Position numbers and translations under genes: made by a program. The notes beneath the pieces were generated by a model. It had not been told where the DNA came from. It did not search any database and saw only the letters and a list, made by a program, of their open reading frames with translations. Source: Sinorhizobium saheli (lineage in GTDB: Bacteria > Pseudomonadota > Alphaproteobacteria > Rhizobiales > Rhizobiaceae). From it: a DNA stretch of 64,000 nucleotides. The DNA lies in the NCBI RefSeq assembly GCF_001651875.1, contig NZ_LNQB01000063.1, forward strand, positions 1 to 64,000, written 5' to 3'. Positions 1,391 through 55,900 of this stretch are shown here, one piece after another (position 1 is the stretch's first letter; every line of letters begins with the position of its first letter).

Positions 1391-2107
1391 TCACGGTTCC
1401 AAGGATTGCCCCATATAGATTTCGGCGACCCGCGGATTGCAGGCGATATCTCGTGCCGGGCCGGACAGGATGAACTGACCGTTCTCCATCACGTAGGCGG
1501 TGTCGGCCACGGCAAGCGCCGCCCTGGCGTTCTGTTCGACCAGCAGGATCGACACACCCGCCTCTTTCAGCCTGACCGTCGTGTCGAGGATGTCGCGGAC
1601 GATCAGCGGGGCAAGCCCGAGGCTGGGCTCGTCCAGCATCAGGACCCGCGGCCGGCTCATCATGGCGCGACCCATGGCCAGCATCTGCCTCTCGCCGCCC
1701 GACAGGGTCACCGCAATCTGGTTGCGGCGCTCCTTCAGGCGCGGGAAGAGATCATGAACCACGGCGAGCTGGTCGCCGTCCTCGCCGCGCCGGGTATAGC
1801 CTCCGAGGAGAAGGTTCTCCTCGACGGTCATGCTGGAGAACAATTCGCGTCGCTCGGGGATGAGGACGAGGCCCGAGCGGGCGCGACCCTCGATCTTCTC
1901 GTCCCCGATGTCCCGGCCGAAGAAGCTGATCCTGCCCTGCATCGGCAGGATTCCGGCTATGGCATTGAGCAGAGTGCTCTTGCCCGCGCCATTGGCACCG
2001 ATGATCGTTGCCGTCGTTCCCCGTTCCAGGTCGAGACCCACCGAATGCACTGCCGCAACCTGCCCATAGCTGACGGAAACACCGGCAATGCTGAGTGCGA
2101 GTGTCAT
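1391..2107 (-). CDS. livF: Branched-chain-type ABC transporter ATP-binding protein LivF
   Basis: 238 aa, the usual LivF length. Walker A GANGAGKST lies near residue 37, the signature LSGGERQMLAMGRAMM near 135 and Walker B VLMLDEPSLGLAP near 155. LivF is one of two cytoplasmic ATPases that power a HAAT-family importer. The start ATG overlaps the stop of the upstream livM-livG gene as ATGA (2104-2107), so translation is coupled. Given the adjacent aromatic pathway, the substrate is more likely an aromatic acid than leucine; this is inferred from context. Confidence 0.93.
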   Translation of the reverse strand: MTLALSIAGVSVSYGQVAAVHSVGLDLERGTTATIIGANGAGKSTLLNAIAGILPMQGRISFFGRDIGDEKIEGRARSGLVLIPERRELFSSMTVEENLLLGGYTRRGEDGDQLAVVHDLFPRLKERRNQIAVTLSGGERQMLAMGRAMMSRPRVLMLDEPSLGLAPLIVRDILDTTVRLKEAGVSILLVEQNARAALAVADTAYVMENGQFILSGPARDIACNPRVAEIYMGQSLEP

Positions 2108-3921: not shown

Positions 3922-4953
3922 TCTTCGTGCTCCTGATGCGCGGTAAACGACCGCAGGAGCAGCGCGGGCAAGATCAACGCGTAGGTGATCGCATCCTTGA
4001 ACTGGCTCCAGTGAAACGAGGTGGCGGCTTCGATCAGCCCGAGAAACAAGGCGGAAACCATCGCCAGCGGATAGCTGACGAGCCCACCCAGGACGGCAAC
4101 GACGAAGCCCTTGAGGGCAATGATGAAGCCGGTGTCGTAGAAGATGGTTGTCATCGACGCGATGAGCACGCCACAGACCGACGCGACCACACCCGAGATG
4201 CAGAATGCGGTCGTGCCGGAGACCTCTGTCGGAATGCCGACCAGCTTCGCCCCCAGCCGGTTGACGGCCGTTGCGCGCAGGACCATGCCGAGATAGCTGC
4301 GCCCGAAGAACACATGCATCGCGACGAGGACAACGATGCTGAAGGCGAGCACGCCGATCTGTTGTCCGGTGAAGGCCACGCCGGCAATACTGACCCGCCC
4401 AGAGAACAATGCCGCGCCACGCGCGCCTTCCGGACCGAAGGCAAGAAGCGCGACGCCCATCAGGACGAGATGCGTGCCGACCGCCGCAATCAGCAGCACG
4501 AGGATTGACGCATTTCCCAACGGCTCGAACACGAGCCGGTAGATCTGCCCGGCGAGCGGTATGACGAGCATCGCGGCAAGGACGGCATCGACCCAGGCCG
4601 GCAATACGACTGGCGACAGGAACCAGATCGCAGCACTCACCACCGCCGGAAAGCCCAGTCCGCCGAGCAGAAGCCGGTACTGCTCCTGCCGCCTCATGCG
4701 CCCGTGGGATCGGCGCCAGGCGAGCAAGGTGGTCGTCACCGCAAGGGCGAGAAACAAGCAGGCGATCGGTTGGCTCGCATATGCGCTGCAAGGCGATATA
4801 GGTCAGCGCAGCGAAAGCGATGAACTCGCCCATGAAGACCATGATGACGCGGGTCAGGGTGAAAACCATGACCATGGCCACGCCGATCAGGGCATAGATG
4901 GCACCGTTGATCAGGCCATCCTTGGCCAGAAGAAGCGCTATAGTTGCGTCCAT
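3918..4953 (-). pseudogene. livH: livH permease, frameshifted
   Basis: The N-terminal part (from ATG 4953, MDATIALLLAKDGLINGAIYALIG, ending near ALTYIALQ) reads in one frame. The remaining roughly 280 residues, including FLALAVTTTLLAW and GRSYLGMVLRATAVNRLGAKLVGI, read in another. The change falls at about 4780-4790, where dropping one base from CAGCGCATATGCG restores a continuous LivH of about 344 aa. Either the permease is inactive or the assembly has a one-base error. The rest of the operon is intact, so an error is plausible. No good Shine-Dalgarno precedes 4953. The 3' end overlaps livMG by ATGA. Confidence 0.8.
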
Positions 4954-5070
4954 AAGGAGTCCGTCCGGGCTGTTGTTGCTTCGCGGGAAGTGCGGGTGGC
5001 GTTCAGGGGAGCGACCGTGCATTCCGGGATCCCGCCCCGGCGTTTGCCCGGACGGGATATCGGATTGGAG

Positions 5071-6192: not shown

Positions 6193-6316
6193 GAAATCCT
6201 CCCGTTGAGCTGATACGTCCGCGAACGGCCGCGTGCGCATGCAATTCACAATTCACCCGGTTCTGCGGCGCTCCTCCCTCGCGCCATTGCCCAAACCCTC
6301 GTCGCCCTCGCCGTCA

Positions 6317-6333
6317 ATACGAATGAGTACTGT
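6317..6333. promoter_or_regulatory. Operator candidate, copy 1 (liv operon promoter)
   Basis: On the minus strand it reads ACAGTACT-CATTC-GTAT and is followed at once by TTGACG, a possible -35 element. The same ACAGTRCT-N5-GTAT pattern is found at 7626-7642 and 18687-18703. Confidence 0.6.
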
Positions 6334-6381
6334 CCGATCCGAAAAAATAGGGGCTTGCCCGTTTGCCTCGGCCCCCATGCA

Positions 6382-7599
6382 CTAGCCGACCGTCACCGCC
6401 TCGCGTTGGTCCACCGCGCAATGCGACAGCATCACGCCGGGATTTCCCACTCGCACCGGGTCCAGAGGACGATCGGCCGAAAGGACGCGGCGCGCTTCCG
6501 AAATCTCCCGCGGGTTGTTGATCGCGATGCAGCCGATCATCCGGTCGCCCTGCATGAAGATGCGGCTGGTCCGCCCACCCGGACCCGGCCGGTCGATCTG
6601 GACGGCATTGTCGGGGCACTGCCCGAGCATATGGATCTTGTCCTTGCCCTGCGTGGTCCAGAACCAGTCTGGTTCAGGCGGCATGTCCGGCAGGCGGAGC
6701 ACCGCGCGAACTGCCCTTTCCGCCGACCGGTTGGCATTCTGCCAGCTTTCCAGCCGGATGCATCTGCCGTCCGCGAGCACCGTCGTGGCGCAATCGCCGA
6801 TCGCAAAGACGTTCTCGTCATCGGTCCGCCCGAACCCGTCCACCAGCACGCCGCTGGCGCATCGCAGTCCGGCTGCCCGAGCCAGGTCGTCATTCGCATC
6901 CATGCCGATCGCTTCGATCAGCAGGTCCGGGCTTAGCTGGCGGTCGGCAATGGTGATCGTGCCGTCTTCATTGAAGGACGGCCTGGCATTCAGGTGTACG
7001 CGGACCCCGGCCGCCTGCTGCATTTCCTCAAGCCGGCGGGAGAGCCAATCCGGTGCAACCCGCCCGCACAGTCGCGGCCCCATCTCGACCAGGTCGACGG
7101 AAGCGCCAAGTCCACGGGTCGTCATCGCGGCTTCCGTGCCCAGCCAGCCGCCTCCGACGACCGCAACGGTCGCCGCCTCGCGGACGACCTCTCGCAACCG
7201 GTCGGCGTCGGCCTTGGTGCGGATCGACAATGACCGGCCGGCAAACGCCGCGGGTAACGGCAGTCGGCGCGCGCGCCCGCCTGTCGCCAGGATGAGCACG
7301 TCGAAGGAATAGCTTCCGGACTCGATTTCAACGCGGCGCGCGACACGATCGATGCGACGAACGGGGCTCGTCACGCGCAAGGTTATGTCCCTTGCTTCCG
7401 CCAGTTCGGGCGGCAGAAGCACGAGTTGCTCGAACGCCGTCAGCCCGAGCGCATAGGCCTTGGACAGTTCGGGCCGTTCATAGGGCGGCAGTCCTTCATC
7501 GCCGAAAAGAAAAACCTGGCCATCGAAGCCCAGCTCCCTCAATTTCAACGCCGAGGCAGCGCCTGCCTGCCCTGCACCGACGATCGCAATTTTCCGCAT
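6382..7599 (-). CDS. FAD-dependent ferredoxin reductase of a ring-hydroxylating dioxygenase
   Basis: 405 aa, typical for the HcaD/BphA4 family. FAD dinucleotide motif GAGQAG is at residues 8-13, NAD motif GGGWLG near 155, and the closing FAD motif NVFAIGDCA near 275. It passes electrons from NADH to the Rieske ferredoxin (14824-15144), which feeds the dioxygenase. It is separated from the main operon by the tetR gene and transcribed divergently from it. Ribosome site GAAGAGGG precedes ATG 7599. Operator copy 2 lies only 27-43 bases upstream of the start. Confidence 0.9.
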   Translation of the reverse strand: MRKIAIVGAGQAGAASALKLRELGFDGQVFLFGDEGLPPYERPELSKAYALGLTAFEQLVLLPPELAEARDITLRVTSPVRRIDRVARRVEIESGSYSFDVLILATGGRARRLPLPAAFAGRSLSIRTKADADRLREVVREAATVAVVGGGWLGTEAAMTTRGLGASVDLVEMGPRLCGRVAPDWLSRRLEEMQQAAGVRVHLNARPSFNEDGTITIADRQLSPDLLIEAIGMDANDDLARAAGLRCASGVLVDGFGRTDDENVFAIGDCATTVLADGRCIRLESWQNANRSAERAVRAVLRLPDMPPEPDWFWTTQGKDKIHMLGQCPDNAVQIDRPGPGGRTSRIFMQGDRMIGCIAINNPREISEARRVLSADRPLDPVRVGNPGVMLSHCAVDQREAVTVG

Positions 7600-7625
7600 G
7601 ACAAAGCCCTCTTCAACTCAGGCAC

Positions 7626-7642
7626 ACAGTGCTCTAGAGTAT
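7626..7642. promoter_or_regulatory. Operator candidate, copy 2 (tetR/reductase divergent promoter)
   Basis: Plus strand ACAGTGCT-CTAGA-GTAT, with the palindrome CTCTAGAG in its centre. It lies between the divergent reductase (start 7599) and tetR (start 7666), as expected for an autoregulated TetR family repressor. 14 of 17 bases match copy 3. Confidence 0.6.
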
Positions 7643-7665
7643 GGAAAACATATGCGGAGACCGAA

Positions 7666-8310
7666 TTGGCTGACACGAACGACGCCCCCACGAAGACCAC
7701 GCGCCGCCCGACGCAACGCTACAAAGACGACCCGCTGAACGAAAAGGACTGGGTCGAAGCCGCCCTGCAGGTCCTCGTCGACGAAAATGTGCGCGGCATC
7801 AAGATCGACACGCTGAGCGCCAAGCTCGGCGTGACGAAGGGCAGCTTCTACTGGCATTTCAAGACCCGCAGCCAGCTTCTCGGCGCCATGCTGGCGCACT
7901 GGCGAAAACAGATGACCCTGAATGTCATTCGCAGCATTTCCATTGCCGGCTCGGACCCCCGCGAAAGACTGTCCGCGCTCTTCGCGCTGCCGCGCCGCAG
8001 GAACTCGCCTGCCTTTGCGCGGATCGAGACCTCGATCCGGGACTGGGGCCGGCGTGTCGACATGCCGCGGGCCGCGGTCGGCGAGGTCGACGAGATCCGG
8101 TTCGACTACATTACCAAGCTCTTTCGCGACATGGGGTATCCGCAGGCCGAAGCCCGCCGGCGGGCCTATCTGGCCTATTGCCTGATCATGGGTGATTCCG
8201 TTCTGCACGGCTCGCTCGACGCCATGTCGCGCGAGGAGTTTCCTGCCTATGCCATCAGGCTGATCGCCTCCGACATGTGCAAAAAGGAACAGGAACCGAC
8301 GGAAGGGTGA
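7666..8310 (+). CDS. TetR-family regulator of the aromatic locus
   Basis: 214 aa from a TTG at 7666, chosen because GGAGA precedes it at 7656 and because the DNA-binding region starts shortly after. The HTH segment GIKIDTLSAKLGVTKGSFYWHFKTR is typical of TetR proteins; the C-terminal ligand domain is not diagnostic. It is divergent from the ferredoxin reductase and ends 15 bases before the convergent aldolase gene. The operator copies at 6317, 7626 and 18687 make it the best candidate controller of both operons, with a pathway substrate or CoA ester as inducer (inference). Confidence 0.85.
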   Translation: MADTNDAPTKTTRRPTQRYKDDPLNEKDWVEAALQVLVDENVRGIKIDTLSAKLGVTKGSFYWHFKTRSQLLGAMLAHWRKQMTLNVIRSISIAGSDPRERLSALFALPRRRNSPAFARIETSIRDWGRRVDMPRAAVGEVDEIRFDYITKLFRDMGYPQAEARRRAYLAYCLIMGDSVLHGSLDAMSREEFPAYAIRLIASDMCKKEQEPTEG

Positions 8311-8324
8311 TGGAAGCGTCACCA

Positions 8325-9341
8325 TTAGGCCCGGTCCCGTTCGCGCGCCATGTCGAGCGCCACGTCGACGATCATGTCTTCCTGCCCGCCGACCATGCCC
8401 CGGCGTCCGAGTTCCACCAGAATGGCACGCGTGTCGACGCCATAGAGATCCGAGGCCTTTTCCGCATGGCGCAGGAAGCTGGAATAGACGCCGGCATAGC
8501 CGAGCGTCAGCGTCTCGCGATCGACCCGGACCGGGCGGTCCTGCAGCGGGCGAATGAGTTCCTCGGCCGCATCCTGCAGCTTGAAGAGATCGCACCGGTG
8601 TTGCCAGCCATAGAGGTTGGCCACGGCGACGAAGGCCTCGATCGGGGTATTGCCCGCCCCCGCGCCCATTCCGGCGAGAGACGCATCAACGCGGAAGGCG
8701 CCGCGTTCGACCGCCGTCACCGAATTCGCAACCGACAGCGACAGGTTTTCATGCATGTGGGCGCCGATCTGAAATCCGGCGCCGAGGACCCCACGATAGG
8801 CGTCTATCCGGGCCGCGACATCGGTCATGACCAGTCGTCCGCCGGAATCGGTGCAGTACACGCAATCGGCGCCGTAGTCCGCCATGAGCCTCGCCTGTCT
8901 GGCCAGGGCCTCGGGCGCTGACATATGCGCCATCATCAGGAAGCCCGAGACGTCCAGCCCCATCTCCTTGGCCGCGGCGATATGCTGGGCGGCCACGTCC
9001 GCCTCGGTGCAATGGGTGGCAATGCGCACCGACTGAACGCCCAGATCGCGCGCGCGCCTGAGATCGTGGATCGTACCGATGCCCGGGAGCAGCAGCGTGG
9101 TCAGCTTCGCCCGCCGGCAGACCTTGGCCGCCTCGGAAATCCAGTCCCAGTCGGTATGCTTGCCGAAGCCGTAGTTGAAGGCCGAGCCGGCAATGCCGTC
9201 GCCATGAGCGACCTCGATCGCATCGACGCCCGCCTCGTCCAGCGCCTCGGCGATGGCACGGACATGGCCGAGGTCATATTGATGCCGCATGGCATGCATG
9301 CCGTCGCGCAGCGTCACGTCCTGAATGTAGATTTGCGTCAT
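8325..9341 (-). CDS. mhpE: 4-hydroxy-2-oxovalerate aldolase (MhpE/DmpG/BphI)
   Basis: 338 aa. A DRE-TIM metallolyase: [14 protein letters not shown] at residues 9-22 carries the conserved Arg-Asp and His, and [11 protein letters not shown] near 195 holds the metal-binding HxH. It cleaves 4-hydroxy-2-oxovalerate (or the hexanoate homologue) to pyruvate and an aldehyde that is channelled to the dehydrogenase encoded immediately upstream. Last gene of the leftward operon; its start lies 1 base past the stop of the dehydrogenase gene. Length matches the family. Confidence 0.95.
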
Positions 9342-9342
9342 C

Positions 9343-10287
9343 TCAGGCCGCCTTTCCGATCCAGTTGCGTTGCGTCACCAACTGCTCGGCGGTCTTCAAC
9401 GCTGCCGAGGTCATGATGTCGAGGTTGCCGGCATAGGCCGGCAGGTAATGGGCGGCGCCCTCGACCTCGAGGAAGACGGTGACCTTGAGGCCGGTAAAGC
9501 TGCCATTCATTTCCGGGATCGTGAGCGGCTGGTTGGAGCCGATATGCTCGAACTGGACCTGCTGCTTCAGGCGATAACCGGGCACGTAGGATTGGACTTC
9601 GGCCACCATGCTCTCGACCGAGGCACGGATAGCCTCCTGGTCCGCCGCCTCGCAGAGACAATAGACGGTGTCGCGCATGATCATCGGCGGCTCGGCCGGG
9701 TTCAGGATGATGATCGCCTTGCCACGCCGCGCACCGCCGACCCGTTCGATGGCGAGCGCCGTGGTCTCGGTGAATTCGTCGATATTCGCGCGCGTTCCCG
9801 GCCCTGCCGATTTCGAGGCGATCGAAGCGACGATCTCGCCATAGATCACCGGCGAGACCCGGTTGACGGCGGCGACAATCGGGATGGTCGCCTGCCCGCC
9901 GCAGGTTACCATGTTCACGTTCGTCGCAGCGAGGTCGCCGGTCAGATTCACTGCCGGCACGACGAAGGGGCCGATCGCGGCCGGGGTCAGGTCGATGACC
10001 TGCTTGCCGTCCCGCTGCAGGATCTCATTGTTCCGCTTGTGCGCGCCCGCCGACGTGGCGTCGAAAACAATGCGGATGTCGTCGTAGTCCGGCAGGCGCG
10101 TCAGGCCTTCGATGCCCTCATGCGTGACGGGCACGCCAAGACGCGCGGCGCGCGCAAGGCCGTCCGAAGCGGCATCGATGCCCACCATCGCGCCCATTTC
10201 CAGAACGTCCGACAGTCGCATGATCTTGATCATCAGGTCGGTTCCGATGTTGCCGGAGCCGATGATTGCTGCCTTGATCTTCGTCAT
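9343..10287 (-). CDS. mhpF: Acylating acetaldehyde dehydrogenase (MhpF/DmpF/BphJ)
   Basis: 314 aa from ATG 10287. NAD motif GSGNIGTD at residues 10-17; the catalytic Cys is in [13 protein letters not shown] near residue 130; the family signature [19 protein letters not shown] follows. It turns acetaldehyde (or propanal) plus CoA into the acyl-CoA, in complex with the aldolase. It closes the meta pathway into central metabolism. Located 4 bases after the hydratase gene. Confidence 0.94.
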
Positions 10288-10291
10288 CTCT

Positions 10292-11077
10292 TCAGCCCCC
10301 GAACCTGATGGCGGTTTCGCCGAAACCCTCGATCCGCGCGACGAATTCGGCGCCGGGTGTCGCCGCAACCATCGGGCCGAGCGCGCCCGACAGGATCACG
10401 TCGCCTTCGTCGAGCGGTCGCCCGGCTGCCGCCATCACTCTCGCAAGCCACAGAAGCGCATTGAGCGGAGAGCCCAGGCACAGCCGGCCCTTGCCTTGAG
10501 AGAGGAGTTCGTCACCGCGGTGCATTTCCATCCGGCAGTCCAGGAGGTCGGCCTCGGTCAGGCGCCGTGCCGAAGGACCGAGCGTGAAGAAGGCCGAGGA
10601 CCCGTTGTCGGCGACCGTGTCGACAAAGCGGATGTCCCAGTTTTCAATTCGCGAGCCGACGATCTCGATCGCCGGCACCACGTATTCGACGGCCCGCATG
10701 ACCTCGGCCATGGTGCAATCGGCATCCTGCAGCGGACGCGAGAGGACGAAGGCGAGTTCCGCCTCGGCCTTCCATTGCGCCGCGGCGTTCCATGGGAGCT
10801 CCGCGCCGTGCGGCAGGTCCATGTCCGCGAACAGCATGCCGTAGTCCGGCTGATCGACGCCCAGCTGCTTCTGCACCGCGGGATTGGTGAGGCCGATCTT
10901 CCGGCCGACCAGCCGCCCGCCGCCGGCGAGCCGCATGCGGGCATTCGCGTCCTGGATCGCATAGGCTTCGGCGGCCGTCGTCACCCGGTCCCGAACCGGT
11001 GCTATCACGATCGAGTTTGCCTCGGCCTCGCGCAGATCCTGCGCGATCTTTTCGATATCGGTGTTTGCGAGCGTCAT
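10292..11077 (-). CDS. mhpD: 2-keto-4-pentenoate hydratase (MhpD type)
   Basis: 261 aa. Contains [18 protein letters not shown] and the metal-binding EAELAFVL (ExE) found in the MhpD/XylJ family of the FAH-like fold. It hydrates 2-oxopent-4-enoate, produced by the C-C hydrolase, to 4-hydroxy-2-oxovalerate for the aldolase. ATG 11077 overlaps the stop of the flavoprotein gene as ATGA. A decarboxylase of the same superfamily is possible, but no hydratase/decarboxylase pair is present. Confidence 0.92.
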
Positions 11078-12045
11078 GCGATCTTCTCCAAATGCGGTGC
11101 CGGTCTCGCGGCCAATCTTGCCTTGGCCGCGTCATATTCGAGGGCCAGCCGGTCGACAATCGTCGCAACCGGCTCCACCTTGCGGATCTGACCGACGCCC
11201 TGCCCCGCGCTCCAGACGGTCTTCCACGCCTTGGCCCCCGAATGCATGTCGCCGGAAAAATCGATCCTGGCCTCAGCCTTGAGATCTGCCTCGGAGAAAC
11301 CCGAGGCCGTGAGCGAGGCGCGCATCCAGTTGCCCAGCGCTCCGGTGATCGCACGCGAGGGCACGATGTCCTCGAGCGTGCTCGCCACCGCCATCTGCCT
11401 GTACGCATCCGGGATCAACGTCTCGCTCGCACCGAGGAAACGGGTGCCGACATAGGCGATATCCGCGCCGAGGGCCTCGATCGCCAGGATGCCGGCGCCG
11501 GTCGAGATGCCCCCGCCGACCGCGACCGGTCCGTCGAAGAAGCTCCTGACCTCGTCAAGGAAGGGCGCCATGGCATAGGAGCCGGTATGCCCGCCGGCAC
11601 CCGCACAGACCAGCACCAGTCCGTCCGCCCCCTTGTCGATGGCCTTGCGGGCATAGGTGGGGCTGTTCACATCCGCCAGCACCTGCCCGCCATAGGCATG
11701 GACGGCATCGGTCACCCGGTGCGGCCCGCCAAGCGCGGTGATCACGATCTCGGGCTTGAATTCCTCGACCAGCGCGATCTCTTCCTCGAACCGGCCATAG
11801 CTGTTGTGGGTGATCATGTTGAAGGCGAACGGCAGCTTCTCCGGTCCGAGTGCGGCCTGGATTGTCTCGAACCATTGCCGCAGATCCGCGATGGTCCGGC
11901 CGTTCGGCCCCGGAAAGGCGCCGACGACACCCGCCTTCGCCGCGGCAATCACCAGGTCCGGCCCCGACACCAGGAACATGGGTGCGGCGATAACAGGCAG
12001 GCGCAGGCGCTGCTTCAGCGCGCCAATCTTTTCCCTCGGTGTCAT
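11074..12045 (-). CDS. Nitronate monooxygenase / 2-nitropropane dioxygenase-like FMN protein
   Basis: 323 aa TIM-barrel flavoprotein. IAAPMFLVSG near the N-terminus, GADGLVLVCAGAGGHTG (catalytic-type His in GGHTG), and the phosphate loop GGGISTG followed by ALGADIAYVGTRFL are all in family order. The family oxidises nitronates, but many members are enoyl reductases or have unknown roles. Here it is embedded between the dihydrodiol-type SDR and the hydratase, with ATGA overlaps on both sides, which implies a real pathway role. Its substrate in this locus is unknown. Confidence 0.85.
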   Translation of the reverse strand: MTPREKIGALKQRLRLPVIAAPMFLVSGPDLVIAAAKAGVVGAFPGPNGRTIADLRQWFETIQAALGPEKLPFAFNMITHNSYGRFEEEIALVEEFKPEIVITALGGPHRVTDAVHAYGGQVLADVNSPTYARKAIDKGADGLVLVCAGAGGHTGSYAMAPFLDEVRSFFDGPVAVGGGISTGAGILAIEALGADIAYVGTRFLGASETLIPDAYRQMAVASTLEDIVPSRAITGALGNWMRASLTASGFSEADLKAEARIDFSGDMHSGAKAWKTVWSAGQGVGQIRKVEPVATIVDRLALEYDAAKARLAARPAPHLEKIA

Positions 12046-12848
12046 GCTTGCTCCCTGTTTTTGCGGCGCCCGCCGCGCACTTCGATCCCGCCATCGGATC
12101 GGATGATCTCCGATGTGACGAAACCGCTTTCGCTGCGCAGCGCCAAGGTTACGTAGAGACCCGCATGGTCCCGTGGCTCCGACAGGAAGCCGAGGGGGAC
12201 ATTGCGCGCGACCATCGCGTCAAAACCCTCGATTTCTGCGAGCGAGCGCCCATCGCCATCCGCTCCGCGCAGTCCCGTCCGCGTGCCGCCCGGAGCGACC
12301 GCATTCACACGGATTTCCGGCGCGAGCTCATAGGCGAGTTGCCGCACGGTCCCGACAAGCGCGTGTTTCGAGCTGACATAAAGCGTGCCGCCGCCGCCGG
12401 CATAGAAGGATGACGAAGACAGCGTGAAGACGATCGAGCCCCTCGACGCGCGGAGCGGCTCCAGCCCGGCACGGGCAGCAAGAAGATAGCCCTGGACATT
12501 GACCTCGAAGATCTCGCGCCAGCGTTCTGCCAGCGTTTCGCCCGGGATCGACTCGAAGCGGTCAGAGAAATCGTAGACGCCGGCATTGGGAATCAAGGTG
12601 TCGAGCCTGCCCCAGCGCTCCGTCGTCGCCTCGACCGCTGCCAGATTGTCCGCCCAGTTCCGCACGTCGCCGATGATCGGGAGAACGTGGTCGCCATGCT
12701 GCGTGGTCAGTGAACGGACATCCGTTTCGCTTCGGACCAGCACACCGACCCGCGCCCCTTCCGCGACGAAGCGGTCGACCACCGCCCGGCCGATGCCTTT
12801 TCCGCCGCCTGTGACGATCGCGACATGTCCTTGTAGTCGACCCGTCAT
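12042..12848 (-). CDS. SDR, cis-dihydrodiol dehydrogenase (BphB/HcaB-like)
   Basis: 268 aa. NAD motif TGGGKGIG at residues 13-20, NAG at about 90, a Ser-rich active strand (FTLSSSSFYAG) and YVSSKHA giving the YxxxK pair near residue 158. NEVNVQGY-type helix and the VNAVAPGGTRT segment are typical of BphB-like dehydrogenases. Expected to re-aromatise the cis-dihydrodiol made by the Rieske dioxygenase to a catechol with NAD reduction. Starts 7 bases after the beta-subunit stop. Confidence 0.87.
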   Translation of the reverse strand: MTGRLQGHVAIVTGGGKGIGRAVVDRFVAEGARVGVLVRSETDVRSLTTQHGDHVLPIIGDVRNWADNLAAVEATTERWGRLDTLIPNAGVYDFSDRFESIPGETLAERWREIFEVNVQGYLLAARAGLEPLRASRGSIVFTLSSSSFYAGGGGTLYVSSKHALVGTVRQLAYELAPEIRVNAVAPGGTRTGLRGADGDGRSLAEIEGFDAMVARNVPLGFLSEPRDHAGLYVTLALRSESGFVTSEIIRSDGGIEVRGGRRKNREQA

Positions 12849-12855
12849 TTCAACC

Positions 12856-13413
12856 TCAGAAGAACGTATTGAGATTCTTGGAAAGGAGGATGTTCTGAAC
12901 GATGAAGATCCTCCGGCGCACCAGTTTCAGTCGGCCGTCGCTGCGCCTCAGCACATCTTCCCGGCGACCGTGGACAATGTCCTGATCGGCCTCATTGCGA
13001 TTTCGCACATTGGTGAAGGCGGAAAACACGGCGTAGACACCGTCGTCGTCGGTGGCATGAACCTCGATGTTCGAAATCAGATGTGCATGCCGCGTCGCCG
13101 GGTTGTCGGCCCAGGCAGACGGTTCGTTGTACCGCCGCACCCGCACCGACAGCTCGTGCCAGCTGTCATCGAAGTAGGCGGATTCGCCATGCCGGAAGGT
13201 TCCGCGCGGATCGTCCCGGCGGCGCGTATCCATGTCCGGCATCCAGTAGCGGATGTCCGGCGCAATCATGGTGTCGATCCACTCCTGATAGCGCTCGGCA
13301 TCCAGGAGCCGCGCCTCCAGATGAAGCCATCGCGTGACTTCCCGCTCGGTTTCGACGTCGACCGGACGATCGAGGTCCCCGAACGGCCTTGCAATGTTCA
13401 ACAGATCCGGCAT
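12856..13413 (-). CDS. Ring-hydroxylating dioxygenase, beta subunit
   Basis: 185 aa with the SnoaL/NTF2-like fold of dioxygenase small subunits: EARLLDAERYQEWIDTMIAPDIRYWMP near residues 32-58, and the C-terminal DGRLKLVRRRIFIVQ strand. It has no catalytic metal and stabilises the alpha3-beta3 enzyme. It begins 4 bases after the alpha gene ends, the usual alpha-beta order. Confidence 0.93.
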   Translation of the reverse strand: MPDLLNIARPFGDLDRPVDVETEREVTRWLHLEARLLDAERYQEWIDTMIAPDIRYWMPDMDTRRRDDPRGTFRHGESAYFDDSWHELSVRVRRYNEPSAWADNPATRHAHLISNIEVHATDDDGVYAVFSAFTNVRNRNEADQDIVHGRREDVLRRSDGRLKLVRRRIFIVQNILLSKNLNTFF

Positions 13414-13417
13414 CGTG

Positions 13418-14821
13418 CTATTCCGCGGCTTGCGCTCGACGGACGGGGGGTGCCGTCTCGCCGTTCTGCAGGTCCGTCCAGTTGTCGTATTTCATGAATT
13501 CGGCCCACCGCGTGTAGAACAGGCGCTGGTTGGCGTCGTTGAGCGATCCCCGGTGCACGTGGCCGGGCATCTCGCTTGCAGCGTCTTCCGTTCCGAGGCC
13601 GAGCGCGTAGTGCAGCGGCTGGTGCCGGGTCACGAAGCCCTCGTTGACCCGCGTCGCATATTCCCAGTTCTCGCCGTCATCCATTTCGAACACGCCGCCG
13701 GGCGAGAAGGTCATCATCGTGCCCTTGCGGTAGAGTTCCTTGATATGCTCCGGCGCGTTCTTGTTGACGAGCGTCCAGGCCACCAGCTCGATCTTGCCCG
13801 GTCCGCGCGGGTGCCAGACGCGGAAGGTGTTCTGGCCCGGCAGGAAGGAAAAATTCGGAAACACGGTGCAGGAAGAGATGGCGCCGATGGCGCGGGCGCG
13901 GATATCGCCGAGGCGGTCCCTCGCCTTTTCGGAAAGGTCGAAGACGTAATCGACCAGTTCCGGATAGCCGAGCGTCCGGGTATTGCCGACCTTGTCGAGG
14001 TTGGATTCGATGCCGTGGCCGTAGACCGATGCCTGGAATGCCAGCTCGTCGTAGCGCTTGCCGAGATCGACCGCGCCGCCGAGAATGGCCTGCGCGCCGG
14101 ACTGATGCGTCCAGAAGGCATGGAGAATGTCGCCGACGAAATTCTCGGCGGGGAATTTCCAGTTGCAATCGATGATCGACCGGATGGCGCCACCGACGAA
14201 TTCGGTGCCCCCCTCGTCATTGTCGAGCATGATGTCGAGATACCAGGTGAAGGGTCCGAAAAAGTCCTCGAGCGACGGCGCCTGCGGATCGAAAGTGGCG
14301 AAGATCAGCCCCTTGTAGCTGTCGATCTGGGCAACCGGCGTGAGCCCGATCTGTGCCTTTTCGAAGGTTTCATCGGTTTCATAGACCTTGCCGTCGGTGC
14401 CGCGCAGCGCGCCGTCGATGCCGAAGGACCAGCCGTGATAGTTGCAGATGAAACCGCGCGCCCTGGTTCCCGCGTCGACCATGCAGACCCTGTTGCCGCG
14501 ATGCGGACAGGAATTGAGGAAGGCCTTCACCGTCTTGTCCCGCTGCCGCACGACGATCACGTCATCCTCGCCCATCGAGGTGCGCAGGAAGTCGCCGGGA
14601 TTGGGAATCTGGCTCTCATGCGCCAGGAACAGCCAGGCGCGGGCAAAGATCTGCTGCAGTTCCGCCTGGTATATTGCCTTGTCGACGAAGACTCGGCGGT
14701 CGACCTGGGCCTTGTCGCGGTCGACGAGACGGGCAAAGTCCGGGTAGCTCGACGCCCGTGGATAGACCGGTCTCATGTCGGGGCGGCTCCTTGCAGCCCC
14801 GTTGCATCCGCCGTCACACAT
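13418..14821 (-). CDS. Ring-hydroxylating dioxygenase, Rieske alpha subunit
   Basis: 467 aa from ATG 14821, which follows GGAGG by 7 bases and sits 2 bases past the ferredoxin stop. ATG 14776 (452 aa, AAGGAG ten bases upstream) is the alternative and avoids an odd Cys-rich first 15 residues. The Rieske ligands are CPHRG and CNYHGW near residues 100-125. The mononuclear iron site is ENFVGDILHAFWTH (two His) with a later acidic ligand. It adds both atoms of O2 to an aromatic ring, drawing electrons from the ferredoxin and reductase. Substrate unknown; the CoA ligase in the operon points to an aromatic acid or its CoA ester. Confidence 0.93.
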   Translation of the reverse strand: MCDGGCNGAARSRPDMRPVYPRASSYPDFARLVDRDKAQVDRRVFVDKAIYQAELQQIFARAWLFLAHESQIPNPGDFLRTSMGEDDVIVVRQRDKTVKAFLNSCPHRGNRVCMVDAGTRARGFICNYHGWSFGIDGALRGTDGKVYETDETFEKAQIGLTPVAQIDSYKGLIFATFDPQAPSLEDFFGPFTWYLDIMLDNDEGGTEFVGGAIRSIIDCNWKFPAENFVGDILHAFWTHQSGAQAILGGAVDLGKRYDELAFQASVYGHGIESNLDKVGNTRTLGYPELVDYVFDLSEKARDRLGDIRARAIGAISSCTVFPNFSFLPGQNTFRVWHPRGPGKIELVAWTLVNKNAPEHIKELYRKGTMMTFSPGGVFEMDDGENWEYATRVNEGFVTRHQPLHYALGLGTEDAASEMPGHVHRGSLNDANQRLFYTRWAEFMKYDNWTDLQNGETAPPVRRAQAAE

Positions 14822-14823
14822 GT

Positions 14824-15144
14824 TCAGGCCTCCACTGCCAATGTTGCGAACACTTTTCCGTCTCGATCCTCGCAGCGGAAGAAAGAGAGGTTGGGACAAC
14901 CCACCGGCCTGTTGTGAACCTCGCCCGAGCCGAGTTCGAACTCTGCGAAATGAACGCCGCAGACGACGCGTCCGTCCTCGATCCAGCCCTCGGCAAGCGA
15001 CTCGTCGGCGTGAGGGCATCGATCCGGGAAGACATAGAGCGCGCCGTTATGGCGGGCGATTGCCACGGCGGGAAAGCCGGGTGCCGTCACCCGAGTGATC
15101 TCGCCGTCGCGAATGGCGCCGCTGTCGCACAGTTCGATCATCAT
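14824..15144 (-). CDS. Rieske-type ferredoxin of the dioxygenase
   Basis: 106 aa. The [2Fe-2S] ligands are CPHADESL and CGVHFAEF, a Cys-X-His and Cys-X2-His pair with the usual spacing. It carries electrons from the flavoprotein at 6382-7599 to the alpha subunit. Size and fold match BphA3/HcaC ferredoxins. Its ATG overlaps the stop of the LigB-type gene as ATGA. Confidence 0.94.
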   Translation of the reverse strand: MMIELCDSGAIRDGEITRVTAPGFPAVAIARHNGALYVFPDRCPHADESLAEGWIEDGRVVCGVHFAEFELGSGEVHNRPVGCPNLSFFRCEDRDGKVFATLAVEA

Positions 15145-15974
15145 GCGGCGACCTCCAGCTCGGCAAAGCCCATGCCGGTGACCCAGCCGGGTACCGGCTC
15201 GTATGCGATCAGGCGTCCGCCTGCGGCCCGGGTCGCGGCCATCGCGCAGGCATAGGTGCGGATTTCCATCGCGCCGTTGCCGCCATCGCGCAGGATTTCC
15301 TCATCGGTCAGCGCCAGCATGGCTGCCTTGTCGCCGCGGGTGACGATATCGAGCACCTTGCGGTCGAAATCCGGGTTCACCTCACCCATCCGCTCATCGC
15401 CGACATGGTGCGAGATGCCGCCGGACCCGATCACCACGATCCGTTCGTCCGACGGGAACGACGCAACCGCCGCAGCGATATGTTCACCGAGGTCCCAGGC
15501 GCGCTTCATCGGCAGGTAGGGTTCGACGCCGCAGGCCAGCATGACGGCAACGATCGGGAGATCGCCGCCCGCAGGCTCGACCATGAGATGGTGCGGGACG
15601 GCGACGGAATGATCGACACTCAGCGCGCGCCCGACCGTCCAGTCGAAGCCGGTCTCGGTCCCGACCTTGGCGATGTGGCTGCCGAGCGCGGCATGGCTCT
15701 TCAGCGGCCTTCGCTTCAGGCCGGGCAGCTGGTCCACCGGGCCGTCGATCTCGCCGGTCGAGATGACGTAGGGCGGCAGGCACTCAGTACCGAAGAGTAT
15801 GTAGTGGTCACAGCCGATGACGATTGCGGCGTCCGCCTCGAGCTCCGCGATGCGGCGCGCCGTTTGCGCATAGGCGTCGTAGCAGAGCTTCGACTGCTCT
15901 TCGGTTGCGCCCTTGGGATTGAAATACATGACCGGGTTATGCGGGGCGACGAAGCCCCCGACGATGCGGGCCAT
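15141..15974 (-). CDS. Class III extradiol ring-cleavage dioxygenase, LigB-type catalytic subunit
   Basis: 277 aa of the LigB superfamily. Candidate Fe(II) ligands and base are in FVAPHNPV (residue 12), the SVDHSVAVPHHLM segment near 155-167, and GSGGISHHVG near 195. This family cleaves catechols next to a hydroxyl (protocatechuate 4,5-, 2'-aminobiphenyl-2,3-diol 1,2-, gallate dioxygenases). Paired with the LigA-like subunit encoded next to it, in the order seen for two-subunit enzymes such as CarBa/CarBb. Class III cleavage combined with an MhpC-type hydrolase is less common than the class I (BphC) version. Confidence 0.88.
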   Translation of the reverse strand: MARIVGGFVAPHNPVMYFNPKGATEEQSKLCYDAYAQTARRIAELEADAAIVIGCDHYILFGTECLPPYVISTGEIDGPVDQLPGLKRRPLKSHAALGSHIAKVGTETGFDWTVGRALSVDHSVAVPHHLMVEPAGGDLPIVAVMLACGVEPYLPMKRAWDLGEHIAAAVASFPSDERIVVIGSGGISHHVGDERMGEVNPDFDRKVLDIVTRGDKAAMLALTDEEILRDGGNGAMEIRTYACAMAATRAAGGRLIAYEPVPGWVTGMGFAELEVAA

Positions 15975-15975
15975 A

Positions 15976-16233
15976 TCAAGCCTCCTCCCTTTTCATTATC
16001 TTCATGTAGTCGCGGTTCGACCTGCCGGCCTGAAGCCAGAAGCCCCAGGTCAGCATCGTGTTCACGCCGAGATCGGCGAGTTCGCGAACGCGGTATTCGC
16101 GGACCAGGGCCCGTTCGCGGTCATCAAGCTGATATCGTCTCAGAAAGGCCTCCGGGTCATCGGCGAATTTCTTCTTGTTCGCGCCCGAGGCCGACAGGTC
16201 GTACAGGACCTTTTCCAGCGTGTTGCGGCTCAT
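15976..16233 (-). CDS. LigA-like small subunit of the ring-cleavage dioxygenase
   Basis: 85 aa from ATG 16233 (MSRNTLEKVLYDLS). The all-helical LigA domain is recognised from FADDPEAFLRRYQLDDRERALV and the following LGVNTMLTWGF. It caps the LigB active site in class III dioxygenases. It overlaps the hydrolase stop as ATGA and ends 2 bases before the LigB-type start, so a stoichiometric complex is likely. Confidence 0.87.
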   Translation of the reverse strand: MSRNTLEKVLYDLSASGANKKKFADDPEAFLRRYQLDDRERALVREYRVRELADLGVNTMLTWGFWLQAGRSNRDYMKIMKREEA

Positions 16234-17090
16234 TCGTTTTCTCCCAGAAAGTCTGTCACCAGCTTGAGGAACTCGGCTTCCCGCTCGATCTGCACCCAGT
16301 GGCCGCATTTGCCGAAACTGTGCAGGTCCGAATTGACCAGCCATTGATGCATGTCGAGCGCGCGATCATAGGGAACCACGCGGTCCTCACGGCCGTGAAG
16401 GATCAGCGCCCGGTGTTCGACCTTGCGCAGCAGCTTTTCGGGGATACCGCGGACAATGGGGTTTTCACCCTGCGGCGGCGGCATCAGCCGGTGGAACGCC
16501 TCGAGCGCGCCATCGCGGGTCGCGGCCTCGAACCGGGCCTCAATCAGATCCTCGGTGATGAAGGATGGATCATAGGGGAAGTAGCTGACGGCGCGGCGCA
16601 TCGAGTCCAGCGTTCCGTCGAACTCTCCCTGGGCGCGCAGGCCTTCAGTCTGGGGAAAATGGCCGCAGGGCGTGCCGAGCAGCACCAGACGATCGATGCG
16701 CTCCGGGTGGTTGATGGCCGTCATCAGGCCCAGCGCGCCGCCGAAGGAGTTGCCGACGACCGAGACCTTCTCGATCCCGAGTCGATCGAGGATCGCGACG
16801 AAATGCTCGACCCAGAGCATGATGTTGTACTGGGTGTCGGGCTTCAGCTCGGTTGCGCCGAAGCCGGCGATATCGGGCGCTATCACGTCGAAATGACCGG
16901 CCAGGGGCGCAATGACCTTGCGCCAGTTGGCCCAGGCCGAAACGCCGGCGCCGGAGCCGTGAAGCAGGGCGACGGGCGAGCCGCGGCCGGCGCGGTGGAC
17001 GTTTGTCCAATGCTCGGCAGCGGTGATCGTCAGGGTCTGTATCCGGGTGTCGAGCACGCTGTTCTCCATTGAATGTTCGTCCGCACTCAT
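16230..17090 (-). CDS. Meta-cleavage C-C hydrolase (MhpC/BphD/CarC-type alpha/beta hydrolase)
   Basis: 286 aa. Oxyanion-hole motif LLHGSGAGVSAWANWR, nucleophile elbow GNSFGGALG (Ser near 117), Asp in GREDRVVPYDRA and the His in KCGHWVQIE complete the triad. HGSGxG and the lid sequence are those of meta-cleavage-product hydrolases. Splits the ring-opened product into 2-oxopentenoate and an acid. ATG 17090 overlaps the CoA-ligase stop by ATGA. Confidence 0.9.
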   Translation of the reverse strand: MSADEHSMENSVLDTRIQTLTITAAEHWTNVHRAGRGSPVALLHGSGAGVSAWANWRKVIAPLAGHFDVIAPDIAGFGATELKPDTQYNIMLWVEHFVAILDRLGIEKVSVVGNSFGGALGLMTAINHPERIDRLVLLGTPCGHFPQTEGLRAQGEFDGTLDSMRRAVSYFPYDPSFITEDLIEARFEAATRDGALEAFHRLMPPPQGENPIVRGIPEKLLRKVEHRALILHGREDRVVPYDRALDMHQWLVNSDLHSFGKCGHWVQIEREAEFLKLVTDFLGENE

Positions 17091-18610
17091 GCCGCCGCTC
17101 CGGCCGATGTCCGCCGGGACAAGGCCTTCAGCGCCATGCGGTCCACCTTGCCTGCCGGGGTGAGCGGAAAGGCTTCAAGGATCTCGATCCGGGCCGGGAT
17201 CTTATAGTTGACCAGATAGGAGGCGCAGGCCCGGGATATCTCTTCCGGTGTCGTGGCCTGGCCCGGCCGCAGGGTGACATAGGCGAGCACGATCTCGCCG
17301 GCGCGCTCGTCTGCCGCGCCGCACACGCAGGCGCAGGCCACGGAGGGATGCGACATGATCGCTTCCTCGACCTCGCGCGGAAACACGTTGAAACCCTTGT
17401 GGATGATCACATCCTTCTTGCGGTCGGTGATGGTCAGGAAGCCCTGCTCATCCATCACGCCGACATCGCCGGTCAGCACCCAGCCGTCGCGAAGGACCAT
17501 CGCCGTCTCTTCGGGATCGTTGCAGTAGCCGAGCATCGTATGGGGCCCGCGCACCTTGATCTCTCCGGCCTCACCGGCGCGCAGAACGCGCGATCCGGTC
17601 TCCATGTCGACGATGCTGATTTCGGTGTCCGGCACGGCCTTGCCGACACTGCCCGCCTTGATCCCGGTCTCGACCGTGTTCACCGCAAGCGGCGCACCCT
17701 CGGTCATGCCGTAGCCTTCATAGATCGTCAGGCCGGTCACGTCCTTCCAGCGACGATGGATCTCGAGCGGAAAGGAAGCGCCGCCTCCGGGGCAGACCCG
17801 CAACGAAGACAGATCGCGGCGGCCGAGGTCCGGATCGGACATGAGCGCCTGGTAGACGGCCGGCGGCCCGCCGCCGAGGACAGTGACCCGCTCGCGCTCG
17901 ATGAGGTCCAGCACTTCTGCGGGATGAAACCGCAAAGGGATGATCGAGGAGCCGCCACACTGGATAGGCAGACAGATACCGGCAAGGAACCCGTAGATAT
18001 GACTGAAGGGCGCGATCGGCAGGAAGACTTCGCCCTCCTGGAGCGGCCAGCCCCACTGCATCCGCGCACCCGCGGCCAGCAGCCTGTCGTGCGTGTAGCG
18101 AATGCGCTTGGGCGTTCCCGTCGTGCCGCCTGAATAGAAATAGCAGGCCGTTTCGTCCCCGGCCGTGGCGCTCGAGGACATTCCGGCATCGAGCGAAATC
18201 CAGTGCCTTATCCTGTCGCCATCGACCACGACGGCCGCGTCGTCGAACTCCAGCACCTGCCCGGCGAAGACAAGTTCCGGGGCCAGCTCCTCCACGAGCT
18301 TCCGCCCCGCTTTTTCGGGCATCGCCGCATTCAGCACCGCCGGGCGCCCACCCGAGAACAGTACTGCAAGGTATGTTATGAAGAAGCCGGGGCCGTTGCC
18401 CATGAACATGGCCACATCGCGGCCCTCGAGCCGTTCCCGGTGCAGCTCGCCAAAGCCGCGAACCGCCGAAAGCGCTTCACCCCAGCTCAGAGCAAAGGTC
18501 GAACTTTTAACGAAAAGCCTGTCAGCGTGCGCGGTGGCGCGCCTTTCGAACGCAGAAACCAGGCTGGCCTCAGCCTCGACGTTGCGCCAATCGAGGAAAT
18601 TCCTGGACAT
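17087..18610 (-). CDS. Acyl/aryl-CoA synthetase (AMP-forming)
   Basis: 507 aa from ATG 18610, preceded by GGGGAGGGG. ANL-family motifs in order: YFYSGGTTGTPKRIRYTH (P-loop) near 180, GYGMTEGA near 315, TGDVGVMDEQGFLTITDRKKD near 400, and the C-terminal PAGKVDRMAL with the catalytic Lys. It activates a carboxylic acid as the CoA thioester. As the first gene of the operon it either activates an aromatic substrate before hydroxylation (an epoxidation-free CoA route) or activates the acid released by the hydrolase. The sequence cannot separate these. Confidence 0.88.
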   Translation of the reverse strand: MSRNFLDWRNVEAEASLVSAFERRATAHADRLFVKSSTFALSWGEALSAVRGFGELHRERLEGRDVAMFMGNGPGFFITYLAVLFSGGRPAVLNAAMPEKAGRKLVEELAPELVFAGQVLEFDDAAVVVDGDRIRHWISLDAGMSSSATAGDETACYFYSGGTTGTPKRIRYTHDRLLAAGARMQWGWPLQEGEVFLPIAPFSHIYGFLAGICLPIQCGGSSIIPLRFHPAEVLDLIERERVTVLGGGPPAVYQALMSDPDLGRRDLSSLRVCPGGGASFPLEIHRRWKDVTGLTIYEGYGMTEGAPLAVNTVETGIKAGSVGKAVPDTEISIVDMETGSRVLRAGEAGEIKVRGPHTMLGYCNDPEETAMVLRDGWVLTGDVGVMDEQGFLTITDRKKDVIIHKGFNVFPREVEEAIMSHPSVACACVCGAADERAGEIVLAYVTLRPGQATTPEEISRACASYLVNYKIPARIEILEAFPLTPAGKVDRMALKALSRRTSAGAAA

Positions 18611-18686
18611 CGGCGGCCCCTCCCCGGCCTGGATCTCGCTCCTCACCCCATGCCCGGATCGTGTCATAGCTCGGGTTTTGATGTCA

Positions 18687-18703
18687 ATACTCTTTAGTAC
18701 TGT
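18687..18703. promoter_or_regulatory. Operator candidate, copy 3 (catabolic operon promoter)
   Basis: Minus-strand ACAGTACT-AAAGA-GTAT followed directly by TTGACA, a good -35 hexamer, about 80 bases before the CoA-ligase start. Shares the GTATTGAC junction with copy 1 at 6317-6333. No convincing -10 at 17 bases was found. Confidence 0.6.
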
Positions 18704-18810
18704 TTTTGATGTCGGCGCACGAATGCGGTTTCGAGCGCCCGTTCGGTGCAGGAGCGTCTCGCCGTTGAATTTGCTTCGCTAGGAATGCGGTCTGGAGGCG
18801 CGGCCCCGCC

Positions 18811-19452
18811 CTACCGGCTCTTCAGATAGCTCACCACCGCATCGGCGATCATCGTGCGATGCCGCTCGATCGTCTGGGGCTCCGACAGGTCTCGCCGGAA
18901 GATCGTGCCGAATGTGTAGCGGTTCGAGACGCGGAAGAAGCAGAAGGCGCTGATCATCATGTGAATGTCGATCGGGTCGGCGCGGCGGCGGAAGGTGCCG
19001 TCGGCAAGCCCGCGGTCGATGATCGCCTCGATCGTCTGGATCACCGAGACGTTGAGGTCGCGGATCGCCTCCGACCTCAGCATGTGGGCGGCGTGATGGA
19101 TGTTCTCGATGCTGACGAGGCGAACGAAGTCGGGATTGGCCTCGTCGTGGTCGAAGGTGGTGGCGATCAGCGTCCGCAGCGCCTGCTCCGGCGGCAGGTT
19201 GGCGAGTTCGAGATCGGCCTCGAGCGTGCGGATCTTGCGATAGGAACGCTCGAGAACGGCAAGGTAGAGCGCTTCCTTGCTGCCGAAGTAATAGTAGATC
19301 ATCCGCTTCGACGTGCGGGTGCGTTCGGCGATCTGGTCGACGCGCGCGCCGGCGAGACCATGGGTGGAGAACTCCTCCGTCGCCACGTCGAGAATGTCCT
19401 CCTGCGTCCTTTGCGGATCGTTCTTCCTGCCGTTTATCTGCCGCTCCGCCAT
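18811..19452 (-). CDS. TetR-family regulator, divergent from the TRAP/AroE operon
   Basis: 213 aa. N-terminal HTH (GARVDQIAERTRTSKRMIYYYFGSKEALY) with the invariant YYYFGSK segment; the C-terminal domain has TetR_C features (HHAAHMLRSEA, the Phe-rich FCFFRVSNRYTFGTIF). Transcribed away from dctQ, 399 bases apart, so it probably controls TRAP uptake. The overlapping repeat at 19706-19718 near dctQ is a candidate site. It lies upstream of the CoA-ligase operon on the same strand, but 200 bases and a separate promoter intervene. Confidence 0.87.
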   Translation of the reverse strand: MAERQINGRKNDPQRTQEDILDVATEEFSTHGLAGARVDQIAERTRTSKRMIYYYFGSKEALYLAVLERSYRKIRTLEADLELANLPPEQALRTLIATTFDHDEANPDFVRLVSIENIHHAAHMLRSEAIRDLNVSVIQTIEAIIDRGLADGTFRRRADPIDIHMMISAFCFFRVSNRYTFGTIFRRDLSEPQTIERHRTMIADAVVSYLKSR

Positions 19453-19851
19453 TTCCCGCGCTGCCCCGTCCTTCCATAACCCTCTGATCCGCCGGCCTTA
19501 TTGTCCATAGAGCGGGATGCGCTCACGTGCGTTCGCGCCGCCGCTCTATCTGTCTGTATTTGCCGCATTTGTGCGACGTCAGGTGATTCCACCTGACTGC
19601 AAAATGCTCTGGCGGCAGCGCCGAACGAGGGATCCTCCACAGGCGATGCATCAAGACATATTCACCTTGCCGTTTCGATTCAACCGGCAGCCGTCTTGAC
19701 TTCCGAACTAGTTAGTACATTTTTGGAGAAGCAAGCCGGACGCGCGGAGGAGCGCGGGTCGCGGCCCCGGGCGACCCGCCCGGTGTTGGGAGGGAGCAGC
19801 CTGCCGCGGCCTTCGTCGCGTCCGGCGCGCCGTGTCGCTTGGGAGGAGCGA
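19453..19851. promoter_or_regulatory. Divergent tetR-dctQ control region
   Basis: 399 bases with no gene. It contains TTGACT at 19696-19701 (possible -35), the palindrome AACTAGTT at 19706-19713 running into AGTAC (a TetR-operator-like AACTAGTTAGTAC), and a perfect 9-bp stem at 19754-19779 in the presumed 5' leader. GGGAGGAG precedes the dctQ ATG. Confidence 0.55.
19754..19779 (+). other. Leader hairpin of the TRAP operon
   Basis: GCGGGTCGC and GCGACCCGC form a perfect 9-bp GC-rich stem around an 8-base loop, 73 bases before the dctQ start. No U tract follows. It may stabilise the mRNA or act as an attenuator-like element; that role is inferred. Confidence 0.5.
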
Positions 19852-21706: not shown

Positions 21707-21714
21707 GCGAAATG

Positions 21715-21760
21715 CCCGCGCGGGGAGCGCGGGAGATCAACCGGCCGAGAAAGTTCGGCC
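21715..21760 (+). other. Two hairpins between dctM and dctP
   Basis: CCCGCGC-GGGGA-GCGCGGG (21715-21733) and GGCCGA-GAAAGT-TCGGCC (21743-21760), one after the other in the 70-base gap, ending just before the dctP ribosome site GGGAGGAAA. They could mark an RNA processing point that lets dctP be expressed above the permeases. Confidence 0.55.
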
Positions 21761-21776
21761 CATATGGGAGGAAAGC

Positions 21777-48832: not shown

Positions 48833-48840
48833 CGAACAGG

Positions 48841-55839: not shown

Positions 55840-55900
55840 AATTTTGGCGCGAGATGGGCACTCTGTAGATTCAGCGAACCGGGTTCGCTATTCATGCACC

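Follow-up and report, generated by a model that had tools for sequence, protein, structure and literature searches.

Predicted TetR1 operators in promoters and codons of an hca-like aromatic locus in Sinorhizobium saheli

Which regulator owns a short DNA motif repeated across an aromatic catabolic locus, and are its copies limited to promoters? The question concerns 64,000 bp of the Sinorhizobium saheli genome (assembly GCF_001651875.1, contig NZ_LNQB01000063.1, positions 1 to 64,000), referred to here as the window. The locus holds a catabolic operon, a liv-type ATP-binding cassette (ABC) transporter operon and genes for two TetR-type regulators: TetR1 (7666-8310) and TetR2 (18811-19452). An earlier note described a 17 bp motif at three promoters and proposed a single TetR-controlled regulon. 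Our analysis makes it very probable that the motif is the operator of TetR1, within a five-site repression model. Two of the sites, inside coding sequences, would act as auxiliary operators and a pathway ligand would serve as inducer.

Copies of the motif in the window and the genome

The motif, ACAGTRCTNNNNNGTAT, matches without mismatch at all three promoters (6317-6333, minus strand; 7626-7642, plus strand; 18687-18703, minus strand). At the first and third of these the GTAT does merge into TTGAC. The second copy had been scored at 11 of 12 half-site positions; that figure holds solely against ACAGTACT, and with R as written the score is 12 of 12. The count of three copies was too low. A fourth exact copy, at 18358-18374 (plus strand), lies inside the coenzyme A (CoA) ligase gene and brings the total in the window to four. 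Copies with two mismatches are found at 15784-15800, inside ligB, and at 36194-36210. Hence, six copies with up to two mismatches were observed against 1.28 expected in 64 kb, and six were reached in 0 of 100 shuffles.

The 17 bp pattern is an off-centre view of an 18 bp near-palindrome, CARTACT-N4-AGTAYTG. Re-centred, its rough form is CAATAC[C/T]-N4-[A/G]GTATTG. The locus has five copies, with 0 to 3 mismatches, and the 3' half-site runs into TTGAC at O1 and O5:

18685-18702, minus strand: O1, predicted main operator of the catabolic operon; CAGTACTAAAGAGTATTG on the minus strand, running into TTGACA (18682-18687)
18359-18376, minus strand: O2, predicted intragenic operator at codons 98-103 of the CoA ligase gene; ACA TAC CTT GCA GTA CTG
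15785-15802, minus strand: O3, predicted intragenic operator within ligB codons 58-64; TAC ATA CTC TTC GGT ACT GAG
7627-7644, plus strand: O4, predicted operator between the divergent reductase and tetR genes; CAGTGCTCTAGAGTATGG, a degenerate form with one mismatch to MATACYN4RGTAYTG
6315-6332, minus strand: O5, predicted operator of the liv-type ABC transporter operon; CAGTACTCATTCGTATTG, running into TTGACG (6312-6317)

The earlier note had called for a scan of the whole replicon. Across the S. saheli genome (5.99 Mb, 102 contigs) CAGTACTNNNNNGTAT has three exact copies, all within this locus. With up to one mismatch there are 14 (10+4), compared to 34 (18+16) for the reversed control. Such degenerate matches are no commoner than in the control and, therefore, those outside the locus are background. 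Similarly, MATACYN4RGTAYTG has three exact copies in the genome, all in this locus, and 19 with up to one mismatch against 25 for the control. A near match at C31:9420, in a frame reading by eye as a sugar epimerase, was judged to be chance.

Conservation of the palindrome and its probable assignment to TetR1

Orthologous loci are present in Salipiger pentaromativorans (L045, G419), a Rhodovulum metagenome-assembled genome (MAG; L046, G420) and Stappia indica (L047, G421). Others occur in G1285 (same family group as Stappia), G1208 and a Hyphomicrobiaceae MAG (L048, G422). Three genomes of one genus (G848, G977 and G1075) carry Tistrella-type loci, and the operon is annotated on plasmid pTM2 of Tistrella mobilis. 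G1386 has a partial locus at a contig end. Reduced loci, with TetR1, a nitronate monooxygenase (NMO) and the CoA ligase, are found in G584, G519 and G1125; those of G829 and G1116 are more distant. No close TetR1 relative was detected in 32 other genomes of the same genus (best 37% identity), and none at E 1e-35 in 393 other genomes of the same family. Hence, the locus looks acquired.

We built a palindrome matrix from nine promoter sites and scored each locus with its own genus group left out. In the first 30 kb of the window there were exactly five hits (18685, 18359, 15785, 7627 and 6315), with fewer than 0.6 expected by chance. Across all 64 kb, four of the five sites rank 1 to 4. The palindrome lies immediately upstream of the CoA ligase gene in 12 of 14 orthologous loci having such a gene, a count that excludes a 27% CoA ligase match in G1116. 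Nine of those 12 sites read GTATTGAC. In the remaining two loci the CoA ligase is not the first gene. On a Hyphomicrobiaceae contig (L163) two sites, one reading GTATTGAC, precede a substrate-binding protein gene and then the CoA ligase gene; this is the counterpart of O5. In G829, a weaker hit precedes mhpC.

The gap between tetR and the reductase gene also contains hits in the window, Salipiger, G1208, the three Tistrella-type loci, G1386 and the Hyphomicrobiaceae locus (9927 in L048). Upstream of tetR there is a hit in G584 and a weak one in Rhodovulum. Among the distant loci, a hit precedes the CoA ligase gene of G1125, and G1116 has two upstream of tetR. The Tistrella-type loci (L150-L155; G848, G1075, G977) are without the ligB site and have candidate operators in the gaps between the CoA ligase and tripartite ATP-independent periplasmic (TRAP) transporter genes, and between the TRAP genes and mhpC.

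Eleven genomes were scanned with MATACYN4RGTAYTG. Exact copies are confined to the locus in S. saheli, G419, G420, G421, G519 and G584. In G977 three exact copies, all in the locus, were among the matches listed, where exact ones come first. G848 (C2), G1075 (C2) and G422 (C1) each have one exact copy outside the locus, and in G829 there was none. The off-locus copies were judged to be chance: those of G1075 and G848 are inside a long frame, and that of G422 is at a frame edge. The three stretches hold no pathway genes beyond one 32% HcaB match.

TetR1 matches the TetR_N helix-turn-helix family (PF00440; 33.1 bits, cut-off 24). Its AlphaFold model, with a predicted local distance difference test (pLDDT) score of 89.8, has the all-helical, two-domain architecture of the family and matches TetR regulators in the PDB, with template modelling (TM) scores, normalised by query, of up to 0.69. 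The recognition helix of TetR1 is GVTKGSFYWHF; that of TetR2 is TSKRMIYYYF. We assembled 76 distant TetR loci from several phyla (L049-L124), of which 73 were scorable and three had too little upstream sequence. The search span ran from 300 bp upstream of the matched tetR stretch to 30 bp into it. All 73 proteins contain GVTKGSFY, and 66 of the 73 loci have an exact MATAC-N6-GTATK core in the span, compared to 29 of 13,148 random windows (0.2%). The density of the core in these spans is 453 times that in the remainder of the loci. Conversely, 27 of 29 TetR homologues from the same genus have the helix LSRTSFYWFF, and in none of those 27 is the core upstream. Of the other two, the protein with VSKGSFYWHF has two cores and that with VSKGPFYWRF has none. 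Recognition helix and upstream operator core, then, occur together in a GVTKGSFY-type subfamily. Its members carry CATAC-N6-GTATG upstream of their own gene, often as pairs some 21-24 or 42-53 bp apart. The tetR gene of Lysobacter (L113) has a fadE-like neighbour.

TetR2 is RutR-like, with a TetR_C_29 domain. It scores 65.1 bits against the RutR profile (cut-off 368) and, across the 13 other regions compared, is not conserved with the motif. A reading of TetR2 at 18779-19477, which matched no family or structure, was rejected in favour of the frame at 18811-19452. About 130 bp upstream of the TetR2 gene, at 19578-19597, is a perfect 8 bp inverted repeat, GTCAGGTG-N4-CACCTGAC, a different likely operator. 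Because the core tracks the GVTKGSFY-type helix, and TetR2 has another helix and its own candidate operator, the motif goes with TetR1.

Could the motif nonetheless belong to TetR2? The TetR2 gene adjoins O1, ends about 110 bp upstream of it and is transcribed towards it. However, tblastn detected no TetR2 match in 13 other regions compared, whereas TetR1 was found in 12 of these and the motif in most; in four added regions TetR2 was again absent among matches above 100 bits. Given also its unlike helix and distinct upstream palindrome, we rejected TetR2 as owner of the motif, and regard this assignment as very unlikely. Even less credible is that the copies are alike by chance, or are a repeated element without a regulatory role. 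The degenerate matches in S. saheli, no commoner than in reversed controls, would suit this idea. Against it, exact matches in that genome are restricted to the locus, a matrix made from other genera recovers the sites, and the core is enriched 453-fold upstream of the TetR subfamily. We conclude that a single regulon under TetR1, through predicted binding to the palindrome, is well supported computationally. The regulon proposed by the earlier note, thus, stands as the best reading, with the motif conserved beside orthologues of TetR1 and the operon. It was incomplete in leaving out two copies in coding sequence.

Intragenic sites O2 and O3

At O3, ligB reads TAC ATA CT[C/T] [TTC, TTT or TAT] GGT ACT in six loci: the window, Salipiger, Rhodovulum, Stappia, G1285 and G1208. 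Differences between them fall in the N4 spacer and leave the half-sites unchanged. Five other loci encode YIL[F/Y]G[T/P] using ATC or ATT, CTG, GGC or GGT, and ACG, ACC or CCC. At O2, the same six loci have ACA TAC CTT and the three Tistrella-type loci have GCA TAC TTT; the site is absent from the CoA ligase genes of G584, G519 and G1125. In the window, Salipiger, Rhodovulum and Stappia, ATA, ACT, GTA and ACA each account for 1-8% of their codon family where they are used at O2 and O3. The reference for these figures was the operon's own genes.

Matrix scores at coding sites were set against 400 synonymous-codon shuffles per genome. The number of shuffles that attained the best coding score was 1, 0, 0, 0 and 0 for the window, Salipiger, Rhodovulum, Stappia and G1208, respectively; for the second-best score it was 1, 0, 0, 4 and 0. 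We also scanned 4074 six-codon windows from 14 genes at four loci. By rare-codon excess, the best windows of O2 and O3 come 2nd and 6th, and LigA codons 2-31 supply the remaining four of the top six. With the first codons of LigA set aside, the two sites come first and second. That exclusion was made only after the result had been seen, the reason being that the stretch overlaps mhpC in another frame. The spacing of O1 and O2 is 305-327 bp across six lineages, and in the window O2 is 326 bp downstream of O1.

Several observations weigh against the five-site model. O4 is the weakest of the five sites, tying at 12.8 with a stray hit at 55369, outside the locus. The tetR/reductase gap of two Stappia-type loci has no matrix hit, and stray hits occur where none is expected (examples are Rhodovulum 17916 and 29607, and G848 23444). 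Seven of the 73 distant GVTKGSFY loci have no exact upstream core. The Tistrella O2 is weak: 43 of 400 shuffles reached the score of the single site in G848. By plain codon identity O2 and O3 are not extreme, ranking 94 and 129 of 4074. Nor is the O1-O2 spacing significant, either for clustering (p 0.07-0.13 over four helical periods) or for phase (p 0.07 at 10.5 bp, 0.15-0.96 at other periods).

It could be argued that only the three intergenic copies are operators, the intragenic ones being accidents of a conserved protein or a cluster of rare codons that slows translation. Both sites do sit where the protein is conserved, rare codons may serve other purposes, and plain codon identity does not single the sites out. 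However, common codons spell the same LigB segment in relatives, and changes among the six ligB genes spare the half-sites. In five of the six genomes tried, such scores hardly ever arose by synonymous shuffling, and a matrix derived from promoters of other genera recognises both sites. We therefore consider accident improbable. A slightly better case, though still an unlikely one, can be made that O3 works at an internal promoter from which the lower half of the operon is transcribed, and not as a roadblock or loop partner. The Tistrella-type loci, without O3, have a site in the CoA ligase/TRAP gap plus one just upstream of mhpC, as internal promoters would need. Yet in none of the six loci is O3 directly flanked by TTGAC, on either strand. 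Since Tistrella has these extra sites in place of O3, a mid-operon site may be what is selected. Most likely, O2 and O3 are auxiliary operators with predicted occupancy by TetR1.

Hence, our model is as follows. A TetR1 dimer would bind the 18 bp palindrome at O1 and O5, each of which has its downstream half-site fused to the -35 hexamer TTGAC. Occupancy of these sites would shut off the catabolic and transporter operons. Binding at O4, between tetR and the reductase gene, would probably give autoregulation. O2 and O3, written at fixed codons, would most likely tighten repression as auxiliary operators, either through a loop to O1 or as a roadblock to elongating polymerase. Repression is probably relieved by a pathway substrate or by the corresponding CoA thioester.

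Genes of the locus and comparison with known systems

The locus encodes an HcaE/HcaF/HcaB/HcaD-like ring-hydroxylating system with a Rieske ferredoxin, LigA/LigB-like ring cleavage and MhpC/MhpD-like enzymes. An aldolase, an acylating aldehyde dehydrogenase, the CoA ligase, an NMO/FabK-like flavoprotein and the liv-type transporter are also present:

1391-2107, minus strand: LivF-like ATPase
2104-5022, minus strand: liv permease/ATPase, one frame of 972 amino acids
5071-6249, minus strand: periplasmic substrate-binding protein of the liv-type transporter
6382-7599, minus strand: HcaD-like ferredoxin reductase
7666-8310, plus strand: TetR1, TetR-family regulator and proposed cognate repressor, 214 amino acids (TTG start assumed); TetR_N Pfam match, AlphaFold fold, linked to the operon in relatives
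8325-9341, minus strand: 4-hydroxy-2-oxovalerate aldolase
9343-10368, minus strand: acetaldehyde dehydrogenase (acylating)
10292-11077, minus strand: MhpD-like hydratase
11074-12045, minus strand: NMO/FabK-like flavoprotein
12042-12848, minus strand: HcaB-like dihydrodiol dehydrogenase
12856-13413, minus strand: HcaF-like beta subunit
13418-14806, minus strand: HcaE-like ring-hydroxylating dioxygenase alpha subunit; the open reading frame reaches 15019 and the start at 14806 is presumed
14824-15144, minus strand: Rieske ferredoxin, annotated at the same place in Tistrella
15141-15974, minus strand: LigB-like extradiol dioxygenase, carrying O3
15976-16344, minus strand: LigA-like subunit, its upstream part overlapping the hydrolase gene
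16230-17090, minus strand: MhpC/HsaD-like hydrolase
17087-18667, minus strand: AMP-dependent CoA ligase, first gene of the operon, carrying O2

Because of its overlap with the hydrolase gene, the LigA-like gene probably starts further downstream than the frame implies. Some 110 bp of the ligA frame are shared with mhpC, which is read in a different frame, and the tblastn matches to the two genes overlap likewise in Salipiger, Rhodovulum, Stappia and G1208. In the 972-residue liv frame, a permease domain (412-681) is joined to an ATPase domain, and Pfam matched no family in the first 400 residues. TRAP transporter genes adjoin the locus (20426-22793); those of relatives are inside the operon, and the large subunits are only about 30% identical. 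Elsewhere in the window there is a tRNA-Cys gene (62838-62929), and G+C per 2 kb is 0.57-0.58 at 48001-50000 and 54001-58000, compared to 0.60-0.67 in the remainder.

The hca and mhp genes of E. coli are controlled by HcaR, of LysR type, and MhpR, of IclR type. The locus resembles that phenylpropionate-cinnamate pathway in its HcaE/HcaF/HcaB/HcaD-like dioxygenase set, MhpC, MhpD, aldolase and aldehyde dehydrogenase. It differs in LigAB-type ring cleavage, in the added CoA ligase and NMO/FabK-like flavoprotein, and in its predicted TetR control. HcaE reaches 374.9 bits against a curated equivalog cut-off of 830, below the level of the hca phenylpropionate equivalog; therefore, we can only infer the pathway substrate. 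Fold matches of TetR1 include the TetR repressors FasR, FadR, KstR2 and AibR, of acyl-CoA or catabolic pathways. TetR1 has the same fold and, as with regulators of this type, a palindromic operator overlapping the -35 element and a dimeric repressor are expected. Sequence identity is low, at 12-21% among the 50 matches listed.

In E. coli, the lac system has an auxiliary operator, O2, inside lacZ, and gal has an internal operator. By sequence, the S. saheli locus is lac-like in having predicted further operators for the same repressor (O2 and O3) inside operon coding sequence. As in lac and gal, a main promoter operator is joined by an auxiliary one in coding sequence a few hundred bp downstream. 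Unlike those systems, the repressor is of the TetR rather than LacI/GalR family, a dimer rather than a tetramer is expected, and a second intragenic site lies far downstream in ligB. Conservation at codon level over several genera is seen at this locus.

The intragenic sites are what is new: a predicted operator is spelled by ATA, GGT and ACT codons that ligB retains at six loci. Mid-operon sites are coding in some lineages and intergenic in others, which argues for selection of a repressor-bound mid-operon site rather than one exact place. On balance, we favour a picture in which one TetR branch, with members in several phyla, has retained an ancient core, CATAC-N6-GTATG. Its alphaproteobacterial aromatic-acid branch would also have fixed-codon intragenic operators, so that the repressor would dictate codon choice in the ligB and CoA ligase genes.

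These results predict which regulator and operator belong together in a conserved hca-like aromatic locus. By way of the recognition helix, the prediction extends to a TetR subfamily found in several phyla. Identical or near-identical residues in relatives with and without the operator permit a direct test, by synonymous change, of loop, roadblock and internal promoter. The locus would be a clear natural example of codons doubling as regulatory DNA.

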